The notes under the pieces: model-generated
What the model was told of the DNA's origin: nothing
Databases searched by the model: none
Seen by the model: the letters and a program-made list of their open reading frames with translations, nothing else
Shown here: positions 6,085 through 21,382 of the stretch, in pieces
How the letters are laid out: every line of letters starts with the position of its first letter
Numbering within the stretch: the first letter of the stretch is position 1
Program-made: the position numbers and the translations under genes
Source: Clostridiaceae bacterium
GTDB taxonomy: Bacteria; Bacillota; Clostridia; DSM-8532
Length of the DNA stretch: 42,080 nucleotides
Direction: 5' to 3'
Assembly: GCA_012839205.1 (NCBI GenBank)
Contig: DUNT01000005.1
Span: 1-42,080 of the forward strand

Positions 6085-6160
6085 CGAGGTGTAGCGCAGC
6101 TGGTAGCGCGCTTGGTTTGGGACCAAGATGCCGGGGGTTCAAGTCCTCTCACCTCGACCA
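6085..6160 (+). tRNA. tRNA-Pro (UGG anticodon)
   Basis: Acceptor arm CGAGGTG pairs with CACCTCG, followed by A and an encoded CCA. The anticodon arm CTTGG-TTTGGGA-CCAAG gives TGG. The D-loop GTAGCGCAGCTGGTAGCGC and T-loop GGTTCAAGTCC are canonical. Total length is 76 bases. Confidence 0.97.
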
Positions 6161-6538: not shown

Positions 6539-7234
6539 ATGCTAAAACCATTGAAGAAAACAAGGTTATATGAAGAAATTATCAAGCAGCTAACTGATTT
6601 AATAAATAATGGATCCCTAAAGCCTGGTGACAAACTTCCGACTGAAAGGGATCTGGCAGTTCAACTGAATGTGAGCAGGACGGCAATTCGCGAGGCGCTT
6701 AGGTCTCTAGAAATGATGGGGTTTATAGAATCAAAAGTAGGAGAAGGGACTTTTGTTAAAGAAATAACACTGAATAATGTGATTGACCCTTTTTCCAGCA
6801 TTTTAAGTAAAGATAAAAAGCTAGTAGCAGAACTTATTGAAGTGAGAATACTACTTGAATCTGAAATAGCGAGACTTGCAGCGGCCAGGATAAATGACGA
6901 TAAAGCTGCCGAAATTGAGAGGTGTCTTGATTTAATGGCGAGAGAGATTGCGGAAGGCGGTATTGGGATAAAGGGGGATAATCAATTTCACAATGCATTA
7001 GCCAAAGCAGCGGAGAATACTGCAATGTCAAAGATATTAAATATGTGCGGTGATTTGCTTAACTCCTCGAGGGAAGTGGCACTTAAAAGCATGAAAGACA
7101 CTAGAATAGGACTTAAACATCACAGAGATATTTTTGAGGCAGTAAAAGCCGGCGACGAAAAAAAGGCTTCAGAATTAATGAGAAATCATCTTGAAGAAGC
7201 ATCCAAAAACGTTCAAGGTATTGAAGATAAATAA
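6539..7234 (+). CDS. FadR-type GntR-family transcriptional regulator (FCD domain)
   Basis: A 231-residue regulator. The N-terminal winged helix (residues about 8-75) has the GntR signature KPGDKLPTERDLA followed by VSRTAIREALRSLE and GEGTFV. The C-terminal all-helical FCD ligand domain carries the spaced Asp/His residues (FHNALAKAAEN, HHRDIFEAVKAGD, MRNHLEEA) that usually bind a metal near the effector. AGGAGG precedes the ATG by six bases. FCD regulators typically sense carboxylic acids such as lactate, pyruvate or gluconate. It precedes the acyloin-type operon and probably represses it until the substrate or a product is present. Confidence 0.9.
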   Translation: MLKPLKKTRLYEEIIKQLTDLINNGSLKPGDKLPTERDLAVQLNVSRTAIREALRSLEMMGFIESKVGEGTFVKEITLNNVIDPFSSILSKDKKLVAELIEVRILLESEIARLAAARINDDKAAEIERCLDLMAREIAEGGIGIKGDNQFHNALAKAAENTAMSKILNMCGDLLNSSREVALKSMKDTRIGLKHHRDIFEAVKAGDEKKASELMRNHLEEASKNVQGIEDK

Positions 7235-7278
7235 TTTTTATAAGATACATTGAATGATAAAAGATTTTAGACCATAAC

Positions 7279-7322
7279 TGGTATGACCATATTATAATAA
7301 TACAAGATAAATGGGAATACCA
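7279..7322. promoter_or_regulatory. Two operator sites and -10 box of the acyloin-type operon
   Basis: TGGTATGACCA at 7279-7289 matches TGGT-N3-ACCA exactly. A second, one-mismatch copy, TGGTATTCCCA, lies on the opposite strand at 7312-7322. A perfect TATAAT (7293-7298) falls between them, while the -35 region is poor. The layout suits a repressor that occupies both sides of the promoter core. Confidence 0.65.
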
Positions 7323-7363
7323 GTGCTCAACATAATAAAAAAATAATAAAAGGAGTGGTCGGA

Positions 7364-8728
7364 ATGGATAATAAGGGATTTATTAGTGAATTAGTAGCCA
7401 AAGCAAGAGTTGCCCAAAAGGAATTTGAGAAATTTAATCAGCAGCAGGTAGATGAAGTGGTGAAGGCAATTGCCAAAGTAGTTTACGACAATGCAGTTGA
7501 CTTGGCAAGATTAGCGGTTGATGAGACTCGAATGGGTGTTTTCGAGGATAAGATCAAGAAAAATCAGGGTAAAGCTAAAATTATATGGAACAGTCTGAAA
7601 ACTAAAAAGTCAGTAGGTATTATTAACTATAATGAAAAAACAGGAGTGGTGGAAGTTGCAAAACCAATGGGTGTCGTAGGTGTTGTTACACCTTGTACTA
7701 ACCCAATTGTGACGCCAATGTGTAATGTAATGTTTGCGCTTAAGGGCAGGAATTCAATTATTATTGCCCCACATCCCAGAGCGAAAAAATGTGCGCGACG
7801 TGTAGTAGATCTTTTTAACCAGGCCATAAGCCAATACAATGTACCCGAAAACCTTATACAGTTGATAGATGAACCAAGTGTTGAAATAACCGGTGAGTTG
7901 ATGAAGGCTGTAGATGTGACTGTAGCTACAGGAGGAATGGGAATGGTCAAGGCAGCCTATAGCAGTGGAAAACCGGCTTATGGTGTAGGTGCAGGGAATG
8001 TTCAGTGTATTATAGATCGGAATGTAAATATAAAAGAAGCTATTCCCAAAATTGTAGCAGGTAGAATTTTTGATAATGGAATTATTTGTTCAGGTGAGCA
8101 GACCATTATTATGCATGAAGACGACTACGATATAATCATTTCAGAGTTGAAAGCAAATGGTGCCTATTACATAGAGGATGCAGCAGAGAAGGATAAACTT
8201 CGAAAAGTGATGTTTATTGACGGGGTCATGAATAGGGACGTGGTAGGACAGCCGATTACGAAAGTTGCAGAACTTGCCGGAATCAAAATTCCTGACGGGA
8301 CAAAACTTATTGCTGTAAAGGCGGATGGGATTGGAAGGGAAGACGTTTTCTGCAGAGAAAAGATGTGTTCTGTAATAGCGATCTTCACATATAAGACATT
8401 TGAGCAGGCAGTTGAAATTGCCAATGCAAACCTTGAAGTGGAGGGTAAAGGACACTCCATTAGTATTCATTCGGATAATAAAGATAATATTGAATATGCT
8501 GCAAACACAGTTCCTGTAAGCAGAGTACTAATTAATCAGATATGCTCGACCATGAATGGTGGGAGCTTTTTTAATGGATTTGCACCTACTACCACTCTTG
8601 GCTGCGGTTCTTGGGGAAACAACAGCATATCAGAAAACCTGGACTATAAACATCTAATTAATATTACAAGGATAGGCTACTTTATGAAGGACGCAAAAGT
8701 TCCAACAGATGAAGAAATGTGGGGTTGA
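7364..8728 (+). CDS. CoA-acylating aldehyde dehydrogenase (SucD/EutE type)
   Basis: It catalyses NAD(P)-dependent oxidation of an aldehyde to acyl-CoA (reversible). The 454-residue protein has the catalytic Cys at about position 242 in NGIICSGEQ and the AYGVGAGN nucleotide-site strand. Its TTTLGCGSWGNNSISENL tail is typical of clostridial CoA-dependent succinate-semialdehyde dehydrogenase and related EutE/AdhE-N enzymes. I start it at the ATG at 7364, eight bases after AGGAG, rather than at the upstream GTG. It is the first gene of the operon, six bases before the CoA ligase beta subunit. Acetaldehyde released by an acetoin dehydrogenase would be a logical substrate. Succinate semialdehyde is the alternative that its closest recognisable relatives suggest. 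Confidence 0.88.
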   Translation: MDNKGFISELVAKARVAQKEFEKFNQQQVDEVVKAIAKVVYDNAVDLARLAVDETRMGVFEDKIKKNQGKAKIIWNSLKTKKSVGIINYNEKTGVVEVAKPMGVVGVVTPCTNPIVTPMCNVMFALKGRNSIIIAPHPRAKKCARRVVDLFNQAISQYNVPENLIQLIDEPSVEITGELMKAVDVTVATGGMGMVKAAYSSGKPAYGVGAGNVQCIIDRNVNIKEAIPKIVAGRIFDNGIICSGEQTIIMHEDDYDIIISELKANGAYYIEDAAEKDKLRKVMFIDGVMNRDVVGQPITKVAELAGIKIPDGTKLIAVKADGIGREDVFCREKMCSVIAIFTYKTFEQAVEIANANLEVEGKGHSISIHSDNKDNIEYAANTVPVSRVLINQICSTMNGGSFFNGFAPTTTLGCGSWGNNSISENLDYKHLINITRIGYFMKDAKVPTDEEMWG

Positions 8729-8734
8729 GTAGCG

Positions 8735-9883
8735 ATGGATTTAATGGAATATAAAGCAAAGGAACTCTTTGATAAATATGAGATACCTACGCAAAAAGGG
8801 ATCGTTATAGAGGATGTTAGTGATTTGGCTTCAAAGGCTTTAAATTTGACGTTTCCGCTGGTTGCAAAAGCACAGGTACAAATAGGCGGAAGAGGAAAGG
8901 CTGGAGGAATAAAGTTTGCAAGCAACACAGATGAGTTGCTTGAAGTCAGTAAAAGTATTTTGGGAATGGATATCAAGGGGCATATTGTAAAAAAACTGTT
9001 GATCGTGGAGAAAGCTGAGGTAAGTAAGGAGCTTTATTTAAGCATCATGTTGGACCGACTTTCCAAGAAGCCAATGATTATATTTAGCTCAGAGGGTGGC
9101 GTTGATATTGAAGAGGTCGCCAGGCTGACACCCGAAAAGGTTATGAAGGTCAGTATTGATCCCTTGATCGGTATAAAGGATTATATTATCCGTTATCTTA
9201 TCAGCAAGAGCGGACTGAATAATTCGCTCTATGAGCAAATGTTTGATATCGTCAAAAAACTATATACCTTGTTCTGTGAATACGATTGTATGTTAACGGA
9301 GATTAATCCTCTAGTCATTACAGCAGAAAACAAGATTCTTGCACTGGACGGAAAAGTATCGATAGATGATAATGCGTTAAGCAGACAACCTGATATTTTA
9401 GAATTCAGGGATTCTCTTACAGAAGATGAGTTGGTTCTAGAGGCAAGAAAGTTTAATTTTCTTTATATCCCATGTGAAGTGGATGGTAATATTGCTGTCA
9501 TGAGCAATGGCTCAGGTATGATTATGTCCTGTATCGACCTTATTTCAAAGCAGGGAATGAAGGTAGGGGTAGGTTTTGATCTTGGTGGTGGTGCCACTGC
9601 GGAGAGAATTGCCGAAGCTGTGCGAATAGTACTTTCAAATAAAAATATAAAAGCCTTGTTTATTACCATATTCGGAGGAATTACTCGCTGTGACGAGGTT
9701 GCTACGGGTATAAAAATGGCTATGGAAAAGCATGAAGAAGATAAATTACTTGTGGTTCGTGTTGAAGGTACGAATAAAGAAAAGGGACTGGAGATTATTA
9801 ACAGTATCAAGGGTCAAATCATTTCGGTGGATAATATCAGAGAAGGCGTTTCAGTGCTGGCTGCAAGGAGGGAGCTAAAATGA
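8735..9883 (+). CDS. SucC-like ADP-forming CoA ligase, beta subunit
   Basis: A 382-residue ATP-grasp plus CoA-ligase protein that matches SucC along its length. Visible marks are the opening MEYKAKELFDKYEIP, GGRGKAGGIKFAS (ATP-grasp lid), EINPLV and LDGKVS (Mg2+ site), FDLGGGATAERI and IFGGITRCDEVATG. It phosphorylates ADP using acyl-CoA together with the alpha subunit encoded next, with which it overlaps by four bases (ATGA). The operon setting suggests ATP formation from an acyl-CoA made by the neighbouring dehydrogenases, rather than a TCA-cycle role. Confidence 0.9.
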   Translation: MDLMEYKAKELFDKYEIPTQKGIVIEDVSDLASKALNLTFPLVAKAQVQIGGRGKAGGIKFASNTDELLEVSKSILGMDIKGHIVKKLLIVEKAEVSKELYLSIMLDRLSKKPMIIFSSEGGVDIEEVARLTPEKVMKVSIDPLIGIKDYIIRYLISKSGLNNSLYEQMFDIVKKLYTLFCEYDCMLTEINPLVITAENKILALDGKVSIDDNALSRQPDILEFRDSLTEDELVLEARKFNFLYIPCEVDGNIAVMSNGSGMIMSCIDLISKQGMKVGVGFDLGGGATAERIAEAVRIVLSNKNIKALFITIFGGITRCDEVATGIKMAMEKHEEDKLLVVRVEGTNKEKGLEIINSIKGQIISVDNIREGVSVLAARRELK

Positions 9884-10749
9884 GCATATTAATTGATGAA
9901 AACACCAGATTAATTGTACAGGGCATCACCGGAAGAGAGGGTACTTTTCACACAGAACAGATGCTTGCCTACGGTACAAAGGTAGTAGCTGGTGTTACTC
10001 CGGGTAAAGGTGGACAGACAGTATTTGGTGTTCCTGTTTTCAATACGGTTAAAGAAGCAATTGAAGCAACGGATGCCAATGCATCGGTAATTTTCGTTCC
10101 TGCAAAGTACACCGCAGCAGGCGTATATGAAGCAATGGATGCCGGATTGAAACTTATACTTACCATTGCAGAGCATGTTCCCGTTCACGACATGATGGGT
10201 GTTTACCACATTGCAAAGAAGAAGGGATGCAGGGTTATAGGTCCGAATTCCTTTGGCGTGATCTCTCCGGGCAAAGCAAAATCAGGATTTATGGCTCATA
10301 AAATATTTACTAAAGGCAGTGTGGGAATAATGTCAAGAAGTGCAACCAACTGTTATGAGACTGTCTTTATGATGAGTAATAAGGGAATAGGCCAATCAAC
10401 TTGTGTTGGGAATGGTGGAGATATGATACCAGGATCTACATTTGTAGATTTGCTTCCTTTATTTGAGGCTGATCCGGAAACAAAAGCTATTGTGATTATT
10501 GGTGAGATCGGTGGAAGTGAAGAAGAACTGGCCGCCGAATATATTAAAGAGTATGTAAAAAAGCCGGTTGTAGCTCTGATTGCAGGTAAAAATGCACCAA
10601 AGGGCAGAAGTATGGGCCATGCGGGGGCTATTGTTTCAGCAGATGGCACCGGTAGTGCTGAGAGTAAGGAAAAAAAATTAAGGGATGCTGGGGTCCATAT
10701 TGCTGATAGCACTGCGAACATAGTTGAGATTCTTGAAAAAATATTATAG
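9880..10749 (+). CDS. SucD-like ADP-forming CoA ligase, alpha subunit
   Basis: A 289-residue CoA-binding/ligase subunit, the same length as E. coli SucD. The CoA-binding Rossmann part has QGITGREGTFHTEQML and GVTPGKGG. The phosphorylated histidine is His247 in MGHAGAI, and GIGQSTCVGNGGD and GEIGGSEEE are also typical. Two normally invariant loops differ: the family PNCPG reads PNSFG (Ser124), and SRSGT reads SRSAT. These lie near the CoA thioester and carboxylate site, so the acyl substrate may not be succinate. It overlaps the beta subunit by four bases. Confidence 0.9.
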   Translation: MSILIDENTRLIVQGITGREGTFHTEQMLAYGTKVVAGVTPGKGGQTVFGVPVFNTVKEAIEATDANASVIFVPAKYTAAGVYEAMDAGLKLILTIAEHVPVHDMMGVYHIAKKKGCRVIGPNSFGVISPGKAKSGFMAHKIFTKGSVGIMSRSATNCYETVFMMSNKGIGQSTCVGNGGDMIPGSTFVDLLPLFEADPETKAIVIIGEIGGSEEELAAEYIKEYVKKPVVALIAGKNAPKGRSMGHAGAIVSADGTGSAESKEKKLRDAGVHIADSTANIVEILEKIL

Positions 10750-10756
10750 GTAGTTT

Positions 10757-10790
10757 GCAAAAGGGCATTCCTCTCAGAGGAGTGTGGTAA
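10757..10790 (+). repeat. Intercistronic element, copy A
   Basis: A CAAAAGGGCATTCCTC block followed by TCAGAGGA. The block CAAAA...ATTCC-C...TCAGA also occurs at 12805-12832 and 14709-14735, each time in a gap of the same operon. Here CCTCT-C-AGAGG is a short palindrome. The function is unknown. Confidence 0.35.
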
Positions 10791-10832
10791 AAAAAGGGCG
10801 AGTCCGTTTACATTATTGCGGGAGGTGTAACA

Positions 10833-11798
10833 ATGATAGAAAAAGAACGTATGATACATATATTTAAGACTATGAACAAAATTAGAAAGTTTGAAGAAAA
10901 GGCACTGCAATTGTTTGAGCAAAACAAACTCAGAGGATCAGTTCATCTTTGCATTGGACAAGAAGCAATTCCAGCCACTGTTTGCTCCCTTTTAAGGGAT
11001 GTTGATTATATAACAAGTACACACAGGGGACATGGAGATTGCATTGCAAAAGGTGCAGAACTTGGCAGGGCTATGGCGGAACTGATGGGGAAAGCCACTG
11101 GATATTGCAAAGGTAGAGGTGGCTCCATGCATATTGCGGATTTTACCAAAGGAAATCTTGGTGCAAATGCCATTGTGGGAGGTGGATTGCCAATTGCCGT
11201 GGGAGGTGCTTTAGCTGCCAAGCTAAAAGGTACCGATCAAGTTGCTGTTGCATTTTTTGGTGATGGGGCATCAAATATAGGTACTTTCCACGAATCACTT
11301 AACCTTGCTTCTGTATGGAAACTGCCTGTTATATTTGTTTGTGTGAATAATCTATATGGGATATCTTGTCATGTATCTGAGAGTACATCGGTTGTGGACA
11401 TTGGGACAAGCCGTGCACAAGGCTATAATATGCCTGGTTATAGTATTGATGGTAATGATGTTATAACTATAAACGATGTTATGGAAAAAGCGATTGCACG
11501 GGCTAAAGCAGGAGAAGGACCATCACTGGTGGAGTGTAAAACATATCGATGGTTTGGGCATTGGACTGGGGATCCACAGGTTTACCGGACAAGGCAGGAA
11601 GTGGAGGACTGGAAGCAGAAATGTCCAATAAAGAGATTTAAAGAATATTTGATAACCAATAATATATTGACAAATGCAGAATGCGTTGAAATTGAAGAGG
11701 ATGCTTTTAATCAGGTGGAGGCAGCAACTAAGTTCGCATTGGAGAGTCCAGAACCGGATACTTCTAAAGTAATGGAAGACGTTTTCTGTGAAAATTAA
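10833..11798 (+). CDS. acoA: Acetoin dehydrogenase-type E1 component, alpha subunit
   Basis: A 321-residue thiamine diphosphate-dependent E1 alpha subunit. The TPP motif starts with GDGAS at residues 143-147 and ends with NN at 172-173. SMHIAD, THRGHGD and the YRWFGHWTGDPQVYR segment are characteristic of acetoin/branched-chain-type E1 alpha proteins of this compact size. With E1 beta it would cleave a diketone or acyloin bond and pass the acyl group to the lipoyl arm of E2. GGGAGG lies six bases before the ATG. Acetoin is the favoured substrate because of length, motif and operon partners, but pyruvate or another 2-oxo acid cannot be excluded from sequence. Confidence 0.85.
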   Translation: MIEKERMIHIFKTMNKIRKFEEKALQLFEQNKLRGSVHLCIGQEAIPATVCSLLRDVDYITSTHRGHGDCIAKGAELGRAMAELMGKATGYCKGRGGSMHIADFTKGNLGANAIVGGGLPIAVGGALAAKLKGTDQVAVAFFGDGASNIGTFHESLNLASVWKLPVIFVCVNNLYGISCHVSESTSVVDIGTSRAQGYNMPGYSIDGNDVITINDVMEKAIARAKAGEGPSLVECKTYRWFGHWTGDPQVYRTRQEVEDWKQKCPIKRFKEYLITNNILTNAECVEIEEDAFNQVEAATKFALESPEPDTSKVMEDVFCEN

Positions 11799-11817
11799 CG
11801 AAAGGAGGAATCTAAGA

Positions 11818-12798
11818 ATGAGTATAAAAACTTATGCCCAGGCAATTAGAGATGTAATTGCTGAAGAAATGAGAAAAAATGATAAGGTTTTTATAATGGG
11901 TGAAGATATTGCAAAACAGGGTGGAATTTTTGGCTGTACAAGAGGCCTGTTAGATGAGTTCGGATCGGAAAGAGTAAGAAATACACCAATATCAGAAGCA
12001 GGTTTTGTGGGTGCAGGTATTGGCGCAGCTTGTGCAGGAATGAGACCTATTGTGGAATTGATGTATATGGATTTTACATATGTATCAATGGATCAGTTAT
12101 TAAATCAGGCAGCAAAAATCAGATACATGTTTGGCGGAAAAGCTACCGTTCCCATGGTAATCAGAGGACAACAGGGTATAGGAAGAGGGAATGGTGGCCA
12201 GCATTCCCAATGCGTGGAGCAATTCTTTATGCACATTCCAGGTATGAAGGTGGCTATGCCGTCTAGTCCATCAGATGCAGCCGGTCTTTTAAGAACAGCC
12301 ATCAGAGATAATAACCCTGTGATGTTTTTTGAACACAAAGCACTGTATGCAACAAAGGGTGAAGTACCAGATGACCCTGAATTTGCTATACCTTTTGGTA
12401 AGGCTAATGTATTAAAAGAAGGCAAAGATGTTACCATCATAGGTACGCATTTGTACGCAAGCAAGGCCATGAATGTTGCAAAGACACTTGAGGCAGAAGG
12501 AATCGATGTTGAGGTGATTGACCCAAGGACTCTGGTGCCGATGGACACTGAAACCATGATCAATTCAGTGAAGAAGACTGGAAGAGCTGTAGTTGTGCAT
12601 GAAGCCCATAGAACTGGCGGCCCCGGAGCTGAAATTGCTTCGATTATTACAGAGGGAGCTTTCAAATATTTAGATGCGCCTGTCATCAGGCTTGGTGCAA
12701 AACAGTGTACGCTGCCGTTTAATCTTGGCCTTGAAAATGCAGTTGTTCCACAAGAAGATGATATAATCAGGGCGGTTAAGGCAGTACTATATCAATAA
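11818..12798 (+). CDS. acoB: Acetoin dehydrogenase-type E1 component, beta subunit
   Basis: A 326-residue transketolase-like beta subunit that completes the E1 active site. PISEAGFVGAGIG holds the glutamate that activates TPP. IRGQQGIGRGNGGQHSQ has the active-site His-Ser-Gln, and EAHRTGGPGAEIAS begins the C-terminal domain. I choose the ATG at 11818, preceded by AAAGGAGG at nine bases. An in-frame GTG at 11788 would overlap the alpha gene and lacks a ribosome site. The stop of the alpha subunit is 19 bases upstream, so the two are co-translated. Confidence 0.88.
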   Translation: MSIKTYAQAIRDVIAEEMRKNDKVFIMGEDIAKQGGIFGCTRGLLDEFGSERVRNTPISEAGFVGAGIGAACAGMRPIVELMYMDFTYVSMDQLLNQAAKIRYMFGGKATVPMVIRGQQGIGRGNGGQHSQCVEQFFMHIPGMKVAMPSSPSDAAGLLRTAIRDNNPVMFFEHKALYATKGEVPDDPEFAIPFGKANVLKEGKDVTIIGTHLYASKAMNVAKTLEAEGIDVEVIDPRTLVPMDTETMINSVKKTGRAVVVHEAHRTGGPGAEIASIITEGAFKYLDAPVIRLGAKQCTLPFNLGLENAVVPQEDDIIRAVKAVLYQ

Positions 12799-12804
12799 AT
12801 AAAT

Positions 12805-12838
12805 CAAAAAAATATTCCACATATTTCAGAGGATTACA
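12805..12838 (+). repeat. Intercistronic element, copy C
   Basis: CAAAAAAATATTCCAC followed by ATATTTCAGAGGA resembles the elements at 10757 and 14709. Here an AATAT/ATATT pairing brackets the TTCCAC core. It lies between the E1 beta stop and the hydrolase start. Confidence 0.3.
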
Positions 12839-12887
12839 GTATCAGTTGTTTTGTACTTATTATTTAGAAATAGGAGGAGGCAAAAAT

Positions 12888-13667
12888 ATGTATTTTTTGA
12901 ACAAAGTCATGAATTGCAGACCCACAGGAGGAGAAATAGCAATCTTTTGGCTTGGTCAGGCTGGCTTTATTATAAAATATGACGAAGATAAAGTTATAGC
13001 AATAGACCCGTATCTTTCAAACTGCGTTGAAAGGATATGGGGATTCAAGCGAATTATGATGCCAATAATTTCACCCATGGATATTGAAGCTGATATATTG
13101 CTTGTAACACACCATCATGAGGACCATCTTGACGTAGATTCGATCCCTTTCTTAATGGAATGCAAAAAAACGAAACTGTATGGTCCTAATACTGTGATAG
13201 AAATATGTAAAGGAATGAAAATACCTGAAGATAGACTGACCAAAATGGCAATAGGAGATGAAATAACTGCAGGCAATGTAACAATAAAGGCTTTGTACGC
13301 AGACCATGGTGAGCTTGCTCCAGATGCAATAGGCATGCTTTTAACAATAAAGGGTATTAAAATTTACATAACAGGGGATACGGCATACAGGCCAGAATAT
13401 ATGCAAGATGCAAAGCAAGCAAAGCCAGATATAATCATAATGCCTATTAATGGTGCGTTTGGTAATCTTGGCCCTGAAAGTGCTGCAAAGATGGCACGGG
13501 ATTTCGAGGCTAAAGTAGCAATACCTGGACACTACTGGATGTTTAAAGAACATAATGGTAATCCGCAAGAATTTGAAAACAAAATGAAGGAGTATGCACC
13601 TAAGTGTATGATAAAATTCATGTGTCAGGGAGAGGAATATAGATATGAAAGCACTAGTCAAATATGA
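12888..13667 (+). CDS. UlaG-like metallo-beta-lactamase-fold hydrolase
   Basis: A 259-residue metallo-hydrolase. The metal motif HxHxDH is at residues 75-80 within THHHEDH. Later metal ligands are likely in YADHGE, ITGDTAYRPEY and the final PGHYWMF. The order and length match the UlaG/UPF0173 group, whose best-known member hydrolyses the lactone ring of ascorbate 6-phosphate. The ATG at 12888 follows GGAGGAGG; an upstream TTG reading is unsupported. It sits between E1 beta and an alcohol dehydrogenase, overlapping the latter by 23 bases, which ties it to the same pathway. No known acetoin pathway needs such an enzyme, so its substrate is open. Confidence 0.82.
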   Translation: MYFLNKVMNCRPTGGEIAIFWLGQAGFIIKYDEDKVIAIDPYLSNCVERIWGFKRIMMPIISPMDIEADILLVTHHHEDHLDVDSIPFLMECKKTKLYGPNTVIEICKGMKIPEDRLTKMAIGDEITAGNVTIKALYADHGELAPDAIGMLLTIKGIKIYITGDTAYRPEYMQDAKQAKPDIIIMPINGAFGNLGPESAAKMARDFEAKVAIPGHYWMFKEHNGNPQEFENKMKEYAPKCMIKFMCQGEEYRYESTSQI

Positions 13668-14676
13668 AAATGGATTAGGCAAGATGGAGATAAGAGAAGT
13701 GCCTGTACCAGAGCCGGAATACAATGAAGTTCTGATAAAGGTTAAGGCCGTTGGCATATGTGGAACCGATTTAAAGATATATGACGATAAATTTACATCA
13801 TATCCTCCTGTTATTGTTGGACACGAATTCGCTGGAGAAGTAGTAAAACTTGGGGAAGGGGTAAAGTCTGCAAAAATTGGGGATAGGGTTGTAAGTGAGC
13901 AGCACACCAAGACTTGCGGAGTATGTGAGTACTGCTTGACAGGAAAAAGACACCTTTGCCCCGAAAAAAGAGCTCCAGGGTATGGTATTGATGGAGCATT
14001 TGCACAATACATAAAAATCCCTGAGTCACTGTTGCATATGATACCGGATGGAGTGAGCTATGAAGAGGCCGCCCTTGTTGAACCAATGGCTATAGCAGCT
14101 TACGGTATACTGGATAAAACTAAGATACATCCTGAAGACACTGTAGTAATACTGGGTTGTGGGGCAATTGCAATACTTGCGCTCCAGATGATAAAAGCTC
14201 AAGGGGCATCAAAAGTAATAATGACGGGAATAGATGTGGACGAAAAGAAAAGATTTAATATTGCCAAAGGCTTTGGAGCGGACGTAGTAATAAATTCACA
14301 GAGGGAAGATCCTGTTAAAGTTGTTTTAAATGAAACAAACAAAATGGGTGTGGATGTTGTAATAGATCTATCTGGAGCACCACAGGCAATATTGCAGGGA
14401 TTCGATATGCTAAAGAAGGATGGGCGTTTTTGTGCCATTGGGCTGCCCAATGGGGAAGTAGCGGTACCATGGATGAAGCTTGCTTTAAAAGCCTCCACTA
14501 TTTATTTTAGCTATAGTTCAAATTATATAAGCTGGGAAAGATGTTTGTCCATGATATGCAAGGGCAAGGTAAAGTTAAAGCAGTTTACTGAAGATATTTA
14601 CGCGCTTGACAAGTGGGAAGATGCTTTTAATAGGGCTAGAAGTGGTGAAGCACTCAAGGTTATTATTAAACCATAA
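13645..14676 (+). CDS. Zinc-dependent alcohol/polyol dehydrogenase
   Basis: A 343-residue medium-chain dehydrogenase. Catalytic zinc ligands are Cys39 in GICGTD, His60-Glu61 in GHEFAG, and Glu146 nearby. The structural zinc site is Cys91-x2-Cys94-x2-Cys97-x7-Cys105. The NAD-binding GCGAIA turn is at 171-176. The family includes 2,3-butanediol, sorbitol, threonine and galactitol-phosphate dehydrogenases. In this operon oxidation of 2,3-butanediol to acetoin would feed the E1 complex. The overlap with the UlaG-like hydrolase instead hints at a polyol or sugar-acid substrate. Confidence 0.87.
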   Translation: MKALVKYENGLGKMEIREVPVPEPEYNEVLIKVKAVGICGTDLKIYDDKFTSYPPVIVGHEFAGEVVKLGEGVKSAKIGDRVVSEQHTKTCGVCEYCLTGKRHLCPEKRAPGYGIDGAFAQYIKIPESLLHMIPDGVSYEEAALVEPMAIAAYGILDKTKIHPEDTVVILGCGAIAILALQMIKAQGASKVIMTGIDVDEKKRFNIAKGFGADVVINSQREDPVKVVLNETNKMGVDVVIDLSGAPQAILQGFDMLKKDGRFCAIGLPNGEVAVPWMKLALKASTIYFSYSSNYISWERCLSMICKGKVKLKQFTEDIYALDKWEDAFNRARSGEALKVIIKP

Positions 14677-14708
14677 GCTCTAAGTTTTTAAGGTATGATC
14701 CAGGTATT

Positions 14709-14740
14709 CAAAAGAGGACATTCCTCATACTTCAGAAAAT
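14709..14740 (+). repeat. Intercistronic element, copy B
   Basis: CAAAAGAGGACATTCCTC followed by ATACTTCAGAAAA resembles the two other intercistronic elements of this operon. GAGGA-CAT-TCCTC forms a perfect five-base hairpin. Confidence 0.35.
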
Positions 14741-14776
14741 CGCCGATAAAAGAGGTTCAGTAAAGGAGGTATTTAG

Positions 14777-16111
14777 ATGGCTACAAAAGTAATTATGCCA
14801 AAGCAAGGACTCCAAATGACAGAAGGTATGATCACAAGATGGCTTATAGCCGAAGGGGAAAATGTTGAGGTGGGACAACCTCTGTTTGAAATGGAAACTG
14901 ACAAGTTGACTATACAAATTGAAGCGAATGTATCGGGAACACTATTAAAGATCATTAAAGATGCCGGAGAAGTTGTACCTATTACTGAAATCATTGCAAT
15001 CATTGGTGAACAAGGAGAAGATATATCAGATTTTTTTTCAACAGATAAGCCTGCCGATGACGAAAAGGCTTCAAAGGGTATTGAACTGAAAGTGGATACT
15101 CCGATAGAGGAAGTTAAAGCAGTAAAAGGTAAAAGAAATAGGGATGAAAGAATATTTATAACTCCAAGAGCAAAAATGATTGCCGGTGATAAAGGATTAA
15201 ATTATCTTGATATTGAAGGCACTGGGCCGGAAGGTTTGATCATTGAAAAAGATGTTTTGAACTATATAGAGAAAATGCCTGCGGTGCAAAAGTCAACTCC
15301 ATTGGCTGCAAGGGTTGCAATGCAGAATGACATTGAGCTCTCTGAAGTTAGCGGTAGTGGAGCAAGAGGTAAAGTAATGAAGGCGGACGTTGAAGCAGCG
15401 ATTGCAGCAAGAAAGAGCCAAACTGCGACGGAAAGCAGGAATGGTAATATTATTCCATTTGAAGGTATAAGAAAAGTTATATCTACTAAAATGATGCAGA
15501 GCCTTCATGAGATGGCGCAGGCCAATCACAAAATGAGCGTGGACATGAGCGAGATTATCCGGTTTAGAGAGAAACTAAAGTCCAGCAATATCAAGGTATC
15601 ATATACAGATATTATGGTGAAAGTTGTATCAAAAGCGTTGATGGATTTTCCAATTATGAATTCATCTTTAATAGAGGAAGGAATCCTTTTAAAAGATTAT
15701 GTTAATATGGGTTTGGCTGTTGCTGTTGAAAGTGGGCTTATCGTGCCTGTTATTAAGAACGCGCACCTGATGACTCTGGAAGAGATTTCAACTGTATCAG
15801 CGGAGCTTATAGATAAAGCCCAAAAAGGCGGCTTATTGCCGAATGAATATTCCGACGGAACGTTTACCATCACCAATCTAGGAATGTATGATATTGATGA
15901 GTTTACTGCCATAATCAATCCACCTGAAAGCGCTATACTAGCTATAGGAAAAATTAATAGAATTCCTGTTGTCGAAGGAGACAATATCGTGATTAGGCCG
16001 GTCATGATGTTAAGTCTTACTTATGACCACAGAATTATCGATGGAGCGCCTGCAGCTAAATTTCTACAAAGAGTAAAGCAAATTATGATGAATCCGTATT
16101 TATTGATATAG
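14777..16111 (+). CDS. acoC: Dihydrolipoamide acetyltransferase (E2) with two binding domains
   Basis: A 444-residue E2 acyltransferase that accepts the acyl group from E1 and transfers it to CoA. An N-terminal lipoyl domain (residues 2-77) carries the lipoylated Lys43 in ETDKLTI. A charged linker follows. Next come two successive peripheral subunit-binding-like segments: about 128-165 (TPRAKMIAGDKG to EKDVLNYI) and about 174-211 (TPLAARVAMQND to KADVEAAI). One such domain is the norm. The C-terminal catalytic domain (225-444) ends with the active-site DHRIIDG (His418, Asp422). AAAGGAGG precedes the ATG. It would form the core of the complex with the E1 and E3 genes around it. Confidence 0.9.
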   Translation: MATKVIMPKQGLQMTEGMITRWLIAEGENVEVGQPLFEMETDKLTIQIEANVSGTLLKIIKDAGEVVPITEIIAIIGEQGEDISDFFSTDKPADDEKASKGIELKVDTPIEEVKAVKGKRNRDERIFITPRAKMIAGDKGLNYLDIEGTGPEGLIIEKDVLNYIEKMPAVQKSTPLAARVAMQNDIELSEVSGSGARGKVMKADVEAAIAARKSQTATESRNGNIIPFEGIRKVISTKMMQSLHEMAQANHKMSVDMSEIIRFREKLKSSNIKVSYTDIMVKVVSKALMDFPIMNSSLIEEGILLKDYVNMGLAVAVESGLIVPVIKNAHLMTLEEISTVSAELIDKAQKGGLLPNEYSDGTFTITNLGMYDIDEFTAIINPPESAILAIGKINRIPVVEGDNIVIRPVMMLSLTYDHRIIDGAPAAKFLQRVKQIMMNPYLLI

Positions 16112-16158
16112 GTCAGTGCAATAACTTTACACTAACTTATAAGATAGAAGGGGAAATT

Positions 16159-17550
16159 ATGAATAACAAATTTGATCTAACAATTATTGGCGGGGGACCT
16201 GGTGGGTATGTGGCTGCTATACGTGCGGCACAATTAGGCTTAAAGGTTGCGATTGTCGAAGAAAGAGAAATGGGGGGAACCTGTCTGAACCGGGGATGCA
16301 TACCTACCAAGTCCCTCTTACATTCAGCAGAATTATATCATACTGCAAAAAACAGCGCTGATTCGGGTATTTACATAGATAATGTTCATTTTGAATATTC
16401 CAAAATTGTTAGTAAGAAAGATGCAGTTGTAAAAAAACTAAGATCTGGCGTCGAATATCTAGTGAAAAGTAATGGTGTCACTATCCTAAAAGGAAGAGGG
16501 TTCATTCTAGACAAAAACACAATTGAGGTTACTGGAAAAGAGAAACAAATTATTCATGCAGACAAGATTATCATTGCAACAGGTTCTAGACCATTAAAGC
16601 CACCTATCGATGGAATTGATGGGGATAAAGTACTAGACAGTGATGACGTCTTGAGTTTAGATTTCTGTCCCGACAAAGTTGTTATTATCGGAGGAGGCGT
16701 TATTGGAGTCGAATTTGCAACGATATATAATTCTCTTGGAAAAGATGTTGTAATCATTGAAATGATGAGTAATATCCTTCCTGGTATTGATGATGAGATT
16801 ACCCAAGCCCTCAGAAAATCACTTGAAAAGAAAGGTATCAAAATATTCACTTCATCCAAAGTTATATCTATTCAATCAGGTGATAAGGCTGTTTGTACTT
16901 TTGAGAATAATGGAAAAGAACAAAGTGTGGACGGGGATATTGCCATAGTTGCTATAGGAAGAAAACCCAATAGCGAAAACATAGGTCTTGAAAATGTTAA
17001 GATTGATTTGGAGAGAGGTTTTATAAAAGTTAATGAAAGCATGGAAACTTCGATAAAAGGTATTTATGCCATAGGGGATGTTACAGGGAAAGTATTGCTT
17101 GCACATGTTGCCTCTGAACAGGGTTTGGTGGCTGCTGCCAATTCCGCTGGTAAGTATAAAAAAATGGACTATTCGGTTATTCCCGGATGCATTTATACCA
17201 ACCCTGAAGTTGCAACAGTTGGATTATCAGAAGCTGAGGCTATAAAAAAAGGATATCAATTGAAAATTGGGAGGTTTCCTATAAGTGCCAATGGTAAATC
17301 CATGATCATGGGCGAGAAGGAAGGTTTTGTGAAAATCATAACCGATAAAGCCACAGGAGAAATTCTGGGAACACATATCATGGGACCAAGAGCTACAGAT
17401 ATGATTTCTGAGATGTGTGTAGCAATGAAACTGGAATCTACTATCGAAGAGATTGCCGATACAATACACCCCCATCCTACAGTCAGTGAAATAGTGATGG
17501 AAGCTGCTCATGATGTTGAAGGGATTTGTATACACAAGTCCAAAAAATAA
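16159..17550 (+). CDS. lpdA: Dihydrolipoyl dehydrogenase (E3)
   Basis: A 463-residue FAD-dependent disulfide oxidoreductase that reoxidises the lipoyl arm and makes NADH. The FAD site GGGPGG is at residues 11-16 and the redox disulfide at Cys42/Cys47 in GGTCLNRGCIPTK. The NAD-binding motif is GGGVIGVEFA, the second FAD motif is YAIGDVTG, and the catalytic base is in HPHPTVSE near the C-terminus. No extra lipoyl domain is fused at the N-terminus. It is the last gene of the operon and follows the E2 gene by 47 bases with no terminator between. Confidence 0.95.
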   Translation: MNNKFDLTIIGGGPGGYVAAIRAAQLGLKVAIVEEREMGGTCLNRGCIPTKSLLHSAELYHTAKNSADSGIYIDNVHFEYSKIVSKKDAVVKKLRSGVEYLVKSNGVTILKGRGFILDKNTIEVTGKEKQIIHADKIIIATGSRPLKPPIDGIDGDKVLDSDDVLSLDFCPDKVVIIGGGVIGVEFATIYNSLGKDVVIIEMMSNILPGIDDEITQALRKSLEKKGIKIFTSSKVISIQSGDKAVCTFENNGKEQSVDGDIAIVAIGRKPNSENIGLENVKIDLERGFIKVNESMETSIKGIYAIGDVTGKVLLAHVASEQGLVAAANSAGKYKKMDYSVIPGCIYTNPEVATVGLSEAEAIKKGYQLKIGRFPISANGKSMIMGEKEGFVKIITDKATGEILGTHIMGPRATDMISEMCVAMKLESTIEEIADTIHPHPTVSEIVMEAAHDVEGICIHKSKK

Positions 17551-17659
17551 AGGAGTAAAGATGGGCATGAAAAAGTAATACCAATGCCAAGAAGGCGGCA
17601 TAATGTTGCAATTTATTAGCATTTTCGAGCTATTTCGAGCAATCTATATTAGAAATGTA

Positions 17660-17689
17660 TTGACATGCCTAGGATATCCATGCTAATCT
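17660..17689 (+). promoter_or_regulatory. Promoter of the GEMM riboswitch transcript
   Basis: A perfect TTGACA (17660-17665) is followed after 18 bases by TAATCT with a TG one base upstream, an extended -10 arrangement. Transcription would start near 17696, about 20 bases before the riboswitch, so the RNA need not come from the acyloin operon. Confidence 0.5.
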
Positions 17690-17715
17690 GGTTAGGATCA
17701 TATTTGCGTAATTAA

Positions 17716-17795
17716 AAAGGGCAAAGCTGATGAAAATCAGTGGCGCAAAGCTAGAGGGTCTAAGTCCTGCAAAGGATATGACAGCCAGTTGCCAT
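17716..17795 (+). promoter_or_regulatory. Cyclic di-GMP-I (GEMM) riboswitch aptamer
   Basis: The sequence follows the GEMM-I layout: GGGCAAAGC, a small GAAA-type hairpin, GGCGCAAAGCTA, GAGGGTCTAAG, a second hairpin, then ATGACAGCCAGTTGCC closing the basal stem with GGCAA. These blocks, their order and their spacing match clostridial c-di-GMP-I riboswitches. The 3' strand GCC of the basal stem is also the first three bases of the following terminator hairpin. Ligand binding should therefore prevent termination (an ON switch). No gene follows on the plus strand. Confidence 0.88.
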
Positions 17796-17821
17796 TATTC
17801 TTTATGGATAATGGCTTCTTT
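17791..17821 (+). terminator. Riboswitch expression-platform terminator
   Basis: GCCATTAT and ATAATGGC are perfect complementary arms around a nine-base loop, followed by TTCTTT. The 5' arm shares GCC with the aptamer's closing stem. A second pairing, CTTCTTT with AAAGAAG at 17836-17842, could compete with the T-rich tail. Confidence 0.7.
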
Positions 17822-17876
17822 GTGAAAACAACGCTAAAGAAGTTCTGAATTATTATGTATATTTTATTGGGGTAAA

Positions 17877-17911
17877 AAAGCCTGCTGGGTAAATCCAACA
17901 GGCTTTAATTA
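17877..17911. terminator. Terminator of the hydrogenase gene
   Basis: Arms AAAGCCTG and CAGGCTTT form a stem with a partly paired TGG/CCA interior. On the minus strand it is followed by TTTTTTA, a strong terminator 30 bases after the hydrogenase stop. It could also stop read-through from the riboswitch side. Confidence 0.8.
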
Positions 17912-17941
17912 TATCAGCAACATTTCCATGGGCATGTGCTA

Positions 17942-20900
17942 CTATTTCAGATTATGTGAAAGATCCTCAAGATTTGAGGCGTCAATACGCTTTCCGTCAA
18001 GTGTGATATATATGTCCTGGCCATTGTGGGTTTCCTTTAGGCGGATTGTATTAACCTCAACAAAAGTATCCATTTTAAGCTTTTTCACTTGCTCAAGGGT
18101 GGAAGCATAAAGCTCTTTGGACCCCTTGGCTGAACATGCATCACAGGTGCAGAAAGTAAGCTGACGGGTTACAAAGGCAGAATCAGCCTTCTTGCGAACA
18201 GTACCGCAGCGGATATCGCCATTGACGGCATGATAGCGGGTATGTAACAGTTTATGAGCCAAGGATGAATTAGCTTCACCATAGAAATCATGGTACAGAT
18301 TCAGAATGTCGGGATTTTCCTGTGATTTACGGTAGGTGGAGGTTTTATCAATATCAACCAACACCTTCTGACGTTGTTCAAGGGTACCCACTTTCTCCGG
18401 AACAGGATGACCGGCACCGCAAATACAGCCTCCAGGGCAAGCCATAACTTCAATCAAATCATAGCCCACATCCACACCTTGAATAATCTTTTCCACGATA
18501 GGCTCCACATTATGCAGACCACTGATAACAGCTACGTGAACAGTTGTGTCATCGGTTTCGACAGTTGATTCCTTCAAACCGGCAAAACCGCGGACTTCTT
18601 TGAAATCCAGATGGTCGGTCATGACTTTACCGGTCAACTTCTCAACTGCCATACGAAGAGCAGCTTCTGCCACACCCCCCGATGCTCCGAAAAGAATGCC
18701 GGCTCCGGTGACCTGTCTGTAAGGCTCATCAAATTCCTGGGGCTCAATGATTGATGTATCAATGCGCTTAAGCTCAGCCATACTCATCATATCGGTAGAG
18801 GTCAGAACCGCATCCACATCACGGATTCCATCAGGTGCAAATTCAGGACGAGCAGCCTCGTATTTTTTGGCAATACAAGGAACGATGGAAACCACGTACA
18901 AATCTTCTTTATTGAGACCTGCCAGCTGGGCATAATGGTTTTTCACAGTAGCACCCATCATCTGCTGTGGTGATTTACAGGTAGACAGATGGGGAATAAG
19001 CTCCGGATAACGCCGCTCAACGAAATTGACCCATCCCGGACAGCAAGAGGTAAACTGGGGCATAACACCCTTATTTGCTACACGGTTTAAAAATTCGGTG
19101 GTTTCCTCCACAATGGTTAAGTCAGCAGCGAAGGAGAAATCAAAGACCTTATCAAAACCGAGCTTTTTGAGAAGACCCGCCATGAATCCGGAAGCCTTAT
19201 CAAATGGAATACCGTAATGGGAAGAAACTACGCTTCGTACAGCGGGTGCGACAAAGGCAACCACAGTCTTAGAGGGATCATTGATAGCTCTGAACACCTT
19301 GCCTTTTTCACTCTTTACCTCTAATGCGCCACAGGGACAAGCATTCACACACTGCCCGCAGCTGACGCAATCGGTTTCATGAAGAGGAAGACCACTTCTT
19401 GTTCCCACCAACTGACGGCCATGCTTCATGTAAAAAGCCAGAACGTCGGGGCCCTCAACCTCTGCACAAGCTGCAATACAACGACCGCAGGAAATACATT
19501 TATTGTGATCCCTGACAATGAAGGGATGATCCTCAACAATTGGGATATAAGGCCTTTCATGAATTGGTTTCTCATACATAATATTATGGTCAGAAGCCTC
19601 ATTTCTCAAATCACAATTATATTGCTTGTTACATCCACATCTCAGACAGCGGCGTGATTCCTCGCGAGCAGCTTCTTCAGATAACCCCAACTCGACTTCC
19701 TTAAAGTTACCTTCTCTCGCTTTAAGGTCAATGGAAGGCATCTTAGCACGCTCCAGCCTGGGGAAATGTTCAAAATCCCATTTTGGGAGGTCCTCCATGG
19801 AGCCTCTGCTGCAGCTGTAGTCCATATGACTCTCCGGAACGTACCCCTTCATGAGAAAGCTGTCTATAGCTTCGGCAGCGCGGCGACCAGCGGCAACAGC
19901 CTGAATGACTGTAGCAGGACCTGTGACACAGTCCCCGCCAGCAAAAATATTTAATTCAGAGGTCTGGGAGGTCTTACCGTTAATCTCAATATCGCCCCAT
20001 TTGTTCAGCTTGACGGGGAGATCGTTATAGAGAAATTGTGTATTCGTACTTTGACCAATTGCACCAATTATGGTATCTGCCTCAATTTCAAAATTGCTTC
20101 CTTCAATAGGCACAGGGCGGCGACGACCTGAGCGATCAGGTTCTCCGAGCTCCATCCTGATGCATTGCAGTTTCTTCTTGCCATCCTCAGAAACGATGCT
20201 GGTAGGCGCCATCAAAAAAAGCATTTCAACCCCTTCATGAAGGGCTTCTTCAACTTCATAGGATTCAGCGGGCATTTCCTCCCGGGTTCTGCGGTAAATC
20301 AGTTTAACCGACTTAGCACCCTTTCTTAATGCAACGCGGGCACAGTCAATAGCTGTGTTACCACCGCCAATGACTACAACATTTTCACCCAGCTGAATAT
20401 CAGCTTGCTTGGTGACCTGTTCAAGAAATTGAATACCAAGCCATACACCTGGGAGGTTCTCACCTTCAATATGCATAGGTGTAGCGTTCCATGAGCCAAT
20501 AGCCAGATAGACGGCATCAAAATCATCCTGGAGATCTTCAAGACGGATGTGAGTACCAAGGGCCTTTTTAGTCATAATCTTGACGCCAAGATTCCTGATT
20601 ATGTCGATTTCCTTCTCAAGAGTGTCTTTTGGCAGACGATACTCGGGAATTCCATAACGCATCATACCCCCGGCATAGTGCTGGCGTTCAAATACTGTAA
20701 CGTCGTGGCCGCTGATGGCACTATAATAAGCGCAAGTAAGTCCTGACGGTCCGGCGCCCACAATAGCGATTCTCTTTCCGGTTGAATCTTGCTTTTTGGG
20801 CATCCAAGGCTCATCCTGAGCCATATCCCAGTCAGCGATGTAACGCTTAACGTGATTAATGGCAACGGGAGAATCCACCATATTACGGCGACATTGAGCC

Positions 20901-21382
20901 TCACAGGGATGTGGGCATACACGGCCACAGGTCACAGGGAAGGGATTACGTTCTTTGATGACCTGGAGAGCAGCGCTGAAATTACCGTTTGCTGCATGAT
21001 GCAGATAAGCCTGGATATCGATATTGGCCGGACAGGTCATAACACATGGGGCGACACAGTCCGCGTTGTGATCCGACAAAATTTGCTCCAGACGAACCTT
21101 GCGATAGCTTTTTAACTTGGGACTGTTGGTGGTGATAACCATACCCTCCCGGACAGGCGTCTGGCATGCTTTTACATCTCTTTTTTGCTCACCTTCGCCT
21201 ACTTCTACCACGCATAATCCACAGTTTCCATTTGAACGCTCAAGACGGATATCATAACAAAGATGGGGTATATGTATATCCTCTTGGAGTAAGGCCTGGA
21301 GGATAGTCAGATTATCGTAGACTTCAATTTCCCGGCCGTTTACAATTACTTTGATTCGTTTGTTTTTTGTAATGATTTTCAT
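17942..21382 (-). CDS. Multidomain [FeFe] hydrogenase with GltD-like flavoprotein module
   Basis: A 1146-residue iron-only hydrogenase. Residues 1-85 form a [2Fe-2S] ferredoxin domain (Cys42, 54, 57, 73). Residues 105-165 form a Cys-rich GltD-type iron-sulfur segment. Residues 203-515 form an FAD/NAD(P)H oxidoreductase like glutamate synthase small subunit (GAGPSGLT, then GGGNTAIDCARVA). Residues 620-690 hold two [4Fe-4S] clusters. The H-cluster domain has TSCCPGW (778), VPCIAKKYE (834) and ACPGGCICGAGHP (981). The tail (1060-1146) has CTCDACSAKGS, resembling NuoE-type [2Fe-2S] motifs. It should couple NAD(P)H and possibly ferredoxin to H2. AAGGAG lies six bases before the ATG. It resembles the glutamate-synthase-linked hydrogenase class. 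Confidence 0.93.
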   Translation of the reverse strand: MKIITKNKRIKVIVNGREIEVYDNLTILQALLQEDIHIPHLCYDIRLERSNGNCGLCVVEVGEGEQKRDVKACQTPVREGMVITTNSPKLKSYRKVRLEQILSDHNADCVAPCVMTCPANIDIQAYLHHAANGNFSAALQVIKERNPFPVTCGRVCPHPCEAQCRRNMVDSPVAINHVKRYIADWDMAQDEPWMPKKQDSTGKRIAIVGAGPSGLTCAYYSAISGHDVTVFERQHYAGGMMRYGIPEYRLPKDTLEKEIDIIRNLGVKIMTKKALGTHIRLEDLQDDFDAVYLAIGSWNATPMHIEGENLPGVWLGIQFLEQVTKQADIQLGENVVVIGGGNTAIDCARVALRKGAKSVKLIYRRTREEMPAESYEVEEALHEGVEMLFLMAPTSIVSEDGKKKLQCIRMELGEPDRSGRRRPVPIEGSNFEIEADTIIGAIGQSTNTQFLYNDLPVKLNKWGDIEINGKTSQTSELNIFAGGDCVTGPATVIQAVAAGRRAAEAIDSFLMKGYVPESHMDYSCSRGSMEDLPKWDFEHFPRLERAKMPSIDLKAREGNFKEVELGLSEEAAREESRRCLRCGCNKQYNCDLRNEASDHNIMYEKPIHERPYIPIVEDHPFIVRDHNKCISCGRCIAACAEVEGPDVLAFYMKHGRQLVGTRSGLPLHETDCVSCGQCVNACPCGALEVKSEKGKVFRAINDPSKTVVAFVAPAVRSVVSSHYGIPFDKASGFMAGLLKKLGFDKVFDFSFAADLTIVEETTEFLNRVANKGVMPQFTSCCPGWVNFVERRYPELIPHLSTCKSPQQMMGATVKNHYAQLAGLNKEDLYVVSIVPCIAKKYEAARPEFAPDGIRDVDAVLTSTDMMSMAELKRIDTSIIEPQEFDEPYRQVTGAGILFGASGGVAEAALRMAVEKLTGKVMTDHLDFKEVRGFAGLKESTVETDDTTVHVAVISGLHNVEPIVEKIIQGVDVGYDLIEVMACPGGCICGAGHPVPEKVGTLEQRQKVLVDIDKTSTYRKSQENPDILNLYHDFYGEANSSLAHKLLHTRYHAVNGDIRCGTVRKKADSAFVTRQLTFCTCDACSAKGSKELYASTLEQVKKLKMDTFVEVNTIRLKETHNGQDIYITLDGKRIDASNLEDLSHNLK

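Follow-up and report, generated by a model that had tools for sequence, protein, structure and literature searches.

GEMM-I riboswitches that lack an evident target gene have been described previously. In C. difficile 630, five of the 12 class I switches lack a coding sequence downstream and were called possibly nonfunctional or not cis-acting, with the RNAs of these gene-less examples showing very low expression (PMC6200980). A further gene-less GEMM-I RNA, the merRNA of Bdellovibrio bacteriovorus, has been proposed to serve as a store of c-di-GMP (PMC3627812), and reports of riboswitches as terminators at the 3′ ends of genes are cited in the same article. Riboswitches may also face a neighbouring gene, with a convergent gene within 500 nt being the criterion applied to antisense-acting examples; in a survey of antisense-oriented riboswitches, c-di-GMP switches were the most enriched (152 antisense vs 2,554 sense, P 4.55e-62; PMC9943018), and the cited precedent is an S-box antisense RNA opposite the ubiG operon in C. 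acetobutylicum. With regard to successive terminators, the ligand opens the first terminator of Bc1 from Bacillus thuringiensis, whilst the second may still stop transcription (PMC11218506).

The window analysed here, a stretch of 42,080 nt from a Clostridiaceae bacterium (contig DUNT01000005.1), harbours the only GEMM-I copy of a 2.3 Mb Clostridia MAG that is a draft of 133 contigs (Table 1). The aptamer matches RF01051 over its full length (model positions 1–87 of 87) at 80.7 bits (E 1.8e-14), well above the gathering score of 35 bits, and ranks 28th amongst 117 GEMM-I matches from this genome and 98 relatives, which argues that it has not decayed. Comparison with an alignment of 24 sequences reveals that every invariant column is kept and that the conserved core (GGGCAAA, GAAA and GCGCAAAGC) is present, with a nearly invariant C–G pair of P2 appearing as G–U, such that pairing is retained. 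The G preceding CAAA in this core presumably predicts a preference for c-di-GMP over cGAMP, and c-di-GMP is the ligand that we infer. Enzymes for c-di-GMP turnover are encoded in the genome (eight clear GGDEF matches plus fragments, and five EAL matches); one EAL domain frame (G000:C22:7633-8325) is broken by a single TGA, and is possibly a decaying phosphodiesterase. A search for the second c-di-GMP riboswitch class, performed without a positive control, returned no match.

Upstream of the aptamer lies a promoter-like site in which a perfect −35 element is separated by 18 nt from the −10 hexamer, TAATCT, itself preceded by TG. The hexamer is weak, sharing three of six positions with TATAAT, and the site is therefore unlisted by a consensus promoter scan requiring four of six; its use as a promoter is nonetheless plausible. 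On the opposite side of the aptamer, the hairpin of the first terminator, T1 (GCCATTATTCTTTATGGATAATGGC, 17791-17815), has a stem of 10 bp followed by the tail TTCTTTGT, and folds with a z of −4.8, with none of 200 shuffles being equally stable. In total, two terminator-like sites occur in the aptamer region, vs 0.2 in shuffles. As the 5′ arm of T1 (17791-17800) includes the 3′ strand of P1 (17794-17798), T1 and the ligand-bound aptamer are mutually exclusive, and a transcriptional switch that is turned ON by its ligand is thus predicted. The free fold containing T1 reaches −39.2 kcal/mol vs −25.6 kcal/mol when P1 is forced, such that in the absence of ligand T1 is favoured by 13.6 kcal/mol of secondary-structure energy, a value that excludes ligand and tertiary energy. 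As synthesis of T1 is completed only after the aptamer has been transcribed, the switching decision would be kinetic. The original prediction of a complete aptamer with an overlapping terminator indicative of an ON switch is therefore upheld, whilst the extended −10 promoter that it proposed is plausible, with a perfect −35 and a weak hexamer.

Table 1. Features of the GEMM-I locus and its surroundings, with positions counted from the first letter of the window
Feature	Positions	Strand	Description or basis
tRNA-Pro, left edge of species-specific block	6085..6157	+	Synteny with nearest relative ends here
Upstream operon	6539..17550	+	Ends 159 nt before aptamer
Putative promoter	17660..17689	+	−35 TTGACA 17660-17665; extended −10 TGCTAATCT 17681-17689; start expected near 17696
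P1 stem	17708-17712 (GTAAT) with 17794-17798 (ATTAT)	+	5 A/U-rich pairs, from complementarity
GEMM-I (c-di-GMP-I, RF01051) aptamer, complete, GAAA tetraloop	17710..17796	+	Covariance-model match
T1 intrinsic terminator	17791..17823	+	GCCATTATTC-TTTAT-GGATAATGGC stem-loop 17791-17815, tail TTCTTTGT
Short hairpin after T1	17815..17842	+	CTTCTTTGTGAAAACAACGCTAAAGAAG; −7.2 kcal/mol, z −2.7
Possible stump of lost target gene	17822..17875	+	GTG start, VKTTLKKF*IIMYILLG, 18 codons
T2 bidirectional terminator, hydrogenase's own	17877..17906	both	Same hairpin in relatives; folds
Fused GltD-like/[FeFe]-hydrogenase, convergent	17942..21382	−	1146 aa; Pfam Fe_hyd_lg_C E 2.9e-84

From 17797 to the stop of the hydrogenase gene (17942), no coding sequence was found on the + strand, leaving this GEMM-I, as the original prediction had it, an orphan without the same-orientation downstream gene that marks a cis-acting riboswitch. 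Two short reading frames considered as targets, one of 14 codons inside T1 and one of six codons after the aptamer, were rejected, as neither has a ribosome-binding site. A third stretch, the possible stump, has one in-frame stop and likewise no ribosome-binding site, and encodes basic then hydrophobic residues that resemble the start of an exported protein. Only 12 of 2000 shuffles are equally signal-peptide-like, in a test designed post hoc once the sequence had been seen, and AT-rich DNA favours residues of this type; the stretch is thus no more than a hint of a lost target gene. The DNA following the aptamer has no displaced copy elsewhere in the genome, and the aptamer's flanks on either side resemble none of the 116 other GEMM-I loci and no other part of the genome. 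Amongst phages, viral contigs and plasmids, the search for the riboswitch unit returned only a 73-base aptamer-like match on one Paenibacillus plasmid.

Nearly all of the 116 other GEMM-I matches from relatives are followed by a gene on the same strand. The clear exceptions comprise a locus in G093 and two copies of one element, in G014 and G056. In the former (L331, aptamer at 1526 in oriented coordinates), the GEMM-I is likewise an orphan; a convergent gene of the TetR family lies 65 nt from it and possesses its own terminator-like hairpin. The two copies (L048 and L296) share the GEMM-I and its surrounding DNA, 1,087 bases in all, at 99.8% identity in genomes of different families, which is probably a mobile element; here the GEMM-I faces a convergent HTH_3 regulator, making this pair a better candidate than the GEMM-I of the window for an antisense-acting c-di-GMP riboswitch. 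Six further loci that a simple ORF caller presented as convergent (L064, L280, L305, L270, L055 and L068) proved to be artefacts, with a same-strand gene following on inspection.

Beyond T1, the next landmark is a second hairpin, T2, which begins 61 bases past the T1 stem and is stable on both strands (z −3.6 on the + strand, −7.2 on the − strand), being stronger in the direction of the hydrogenase (−19.4 vs −15.6 kcal/mol). The same hairpin is located at the 3′ end of the hydrogenase gene in at least seven relatives (G013, G009, G003 and the named relatives L176, L181, L187 and L225), and none of these seven loci adjoins a GEMM-I. T2 therefore belongs to the hydrogenase, not to the riboswitch; the original prediction was correct in placing a second terminator after about 60 bases. 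Orthologues of the hydrogenase within the genus are 83–96% identical, and the closest named relatives by this protein are Clostridiaceae MAGs. In its architecture, a GltD-like NAD(P)-binding half is fused to an [FeFe]-hydrogenase, with homologues in Clostridia, Actinomycetota, Verrucomicrobiota, Spirochaetota and others, a spread that suggests wide transfer.

Of the genomes compared, only that of this species contains the block that extends from tRNA-Pro to the hydrogenase terminator and has the GEMM-I as its final element. In the nearest relative, G011, the DNA is 84% identical to the left flank up to tRNA-Pro, the hydrogenase protein is 96% identical, and the same acyltransferase and pyrophosphatase lie beside it, such that both outer flanks occur in the same order. 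The interval between them in G011 holds instead an ECF-type transporter and two SAM hydroxide adenosyltransferases, with two contigs (C89/C316) meeting at tRNA-Pro through an identical overlap of about 141 bases, and no GEMM-I is present anywhere in that genome. This interval therefore carries wholly different genes in sister species, and is likely a turnover hotspot. No att-like repeat of the tRNA-Pro 3′ end (12 to 16 bases) was found at the right edge of the block, and a DNA search of 31 other genomes of the family recovered nothing of the riboswitch unit beyond matches to the aptamer or to the hydrogenase terminator. The operon filling most of the block encodes a GntR regulator, an acylating aldehyde DH, an ADP-forming SucCD-like ligase, E1 alpha/beta, a metallo-hydrolase, a TDH-like ADH, E2 and E3. 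It looks like a pathway for acetoin/2,3-butanediol breakdown to acetate, with ATP gained, and adjoins the hydrogenase. For its E2, no match in the rest of the genus passes E 1e-60, the best full-length homologues in the class being about 44% identical, and a search by its last gene returned no close homologues of the operon.

Taken together, these observations are best explained by an ordinary ligand-ON GEMM-I riboswitch that has been separated from its target gene, with the hydrogenase as a chance neighbour, a reading that we consider fairly probable. Transcription would begin near 17696. In the absence of c-di-GMP, T1 would form and the RNA would end at about 120 to 130 nt; in its presence, P1 would be held and T1 blocked, such that RNA polymerase would proceed to T2 and produce a non-coding RNA of about 215 nt. 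As the species-specific block was put together between tRNA-Pro and T2, the target gene would have been lost or never carried along. Most probably, the switch still functions and has no target of its own, and the block that contains it was formed recently. A lost gene had been named as the simpler option at the outset and is supported here as a likely event. A gene lost at the same site was sought in relatives; as the block of G011 is unrelated and devoid of GEMM-I, a deletion of the target cannot be seen there. Against this reading, the ancestral gene is preserved in no relative and its possible stump is weak; in addition, neither the aptamer nor T1 shows decay, an observation that is also compatible with a function, or just with a recent event.

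The best functional rival arises because no strong terminator precedes the aptamer. If the dehydrogenase operon includes the GEMM-I in its 3′ region, its terminators would be T1 and T2, and c-di-GMP would shift its 3′ end by about 90 nt, which might alter operon stability. The gap between operon and aptamer contains only one weak terminator-like site (17595-17609, 6 pairs) and is no more stably folded than shuffles (z −0.9), the species-specific block includes both operon and GEMM-I, and riboswitch terminators at gene 3′ ends are on record, as cited above. Nevertheless, the GEMM-I has a promoter-like site of its own immediately upstream, and the searches revealed no homologous operon followed by a GEMM-I, even the closest E2 of full length being as distant as already described; we therefore regard a conditional operon 3′ end as unlikely.

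Somewhat less likely again is a merRNA-like, free-standing small RNA that binds c-di-GMP, serving either as a sink or as a regulator in trans whose length the ligand would shift from about 120 to 215 nt. The locus does constitute a complete transcription unit, with promoter-like site, aptamer and terminators, and merRNA itself demonstrates that gene-less GEMM-I RNAs exist (PMC3627812). Conversely, the unit is conserved in no relative, a sink requires massive expression whilst the −10 here is weak, and the gene-less RNAs of C. difficile are scarcely expressed (PMC6200980).

More doubtful still is an antisense role, whereby c-di-GMP would promote read-through past T2 that interferes with the convergent hydrogenase gene. 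The hydrogenase stop is 146 nt from the aptamer end, and so within the 500 nt used in PMC9943018, where c-di-GMP switches display the strongest antisense tendency; the S-box/ubiG pair is a cited precedent. The conserved bidirectional T2 intervenes, however, and as it precedes the stop codon (17942-17944), + strand read-through should end near 17912, about 35 nt short of it. The riboswitch and hydrogenase RNAs are thus predicted to overlap little beyond T2 itself. Moreover, none of the 79 loci with hydrogenase homologues in the genome collection has a GEMM-I nearby, in a search that recovered the window and two control loci, and the arrangement exists in one species only. Comparative support for control of the hydrogenase by c-di-GMP is therefore removed, and the link to hydrogen metabolism suggested in the original prediction is not supported. 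A misassembly joining a GEMM-I leader to the hydrogenase flank, with the real gene following elsewhere, is highly improbable: the genome is a fragmented draft and the junction occurs in no other strain, but the outer flanks keep their order in G011, whose contigs overlap at tRNA-Pro, and the post-aptamer DNA exists nowhere else in the genome.

Overall, there is only a slender chance that the locus encodes a working c-di-GMP-dependent non-coding RNA whose ligand-bound 215-nt form acts in trans, on the hydrogenase or at the point where the acetoin-type operon ends, with c-di-GMP tuning fermentative hydrogen metabolism. If the RNA were functional, it would represent a rare c-di-GMP riboswitch that acts without a gene in cis.

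Amongst known systems, the GEMM-I of the window resembles RF01051 riboswitches in its full-length match, conserved positions and a terminator platform that competes with P1, but differs in having no downstream coding sequence. As in Bc1 (PMC11218506), two successive terminators follow the GEMM-I; Bc1, however, has downstream genes and a second terminator of its own, whereas T2 here is that of the convergent gene. The locus shares with antisense-acting riboswitches (PMC9943018; S-box/ubiG) a switch aimed at a convergent gene within 500 nt, yet a conserved bidirectional terminator separates the two here and the arrangement does not recur. Counts of antisense-acting riboswitches made on orientation alone may include stranded cases such as this one, and a useful check before any such assignment is whether an apparent second terminator is, as here, the neighbour's own. 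With merRNA (PMC3627812) there is in common a GEMM-I aptamer in a non-coding transcript with no conserved ORF downstream, although merRNA is 445 nt in length, shows massive expression and is also conserved in a second strain, whereas the RNA predicted here is not conserved. Within Clostridia, the locus resembles Cdi-1-4, -5, -6, -7 and -10 of C. difficile 630 (PMC6200980), in which the aptamer similarly has no detectable downstream coding sequence. Two gene-less switches of C. difficile reside in duplicated prophage regions (PMC3649979), whereas the host here is an uncultured bacterium and its GEMM-I closes a metabolic block bounded by a tRNA; this GEMM-I would provide an example of a riboswitch stranded by genome rearrangement.
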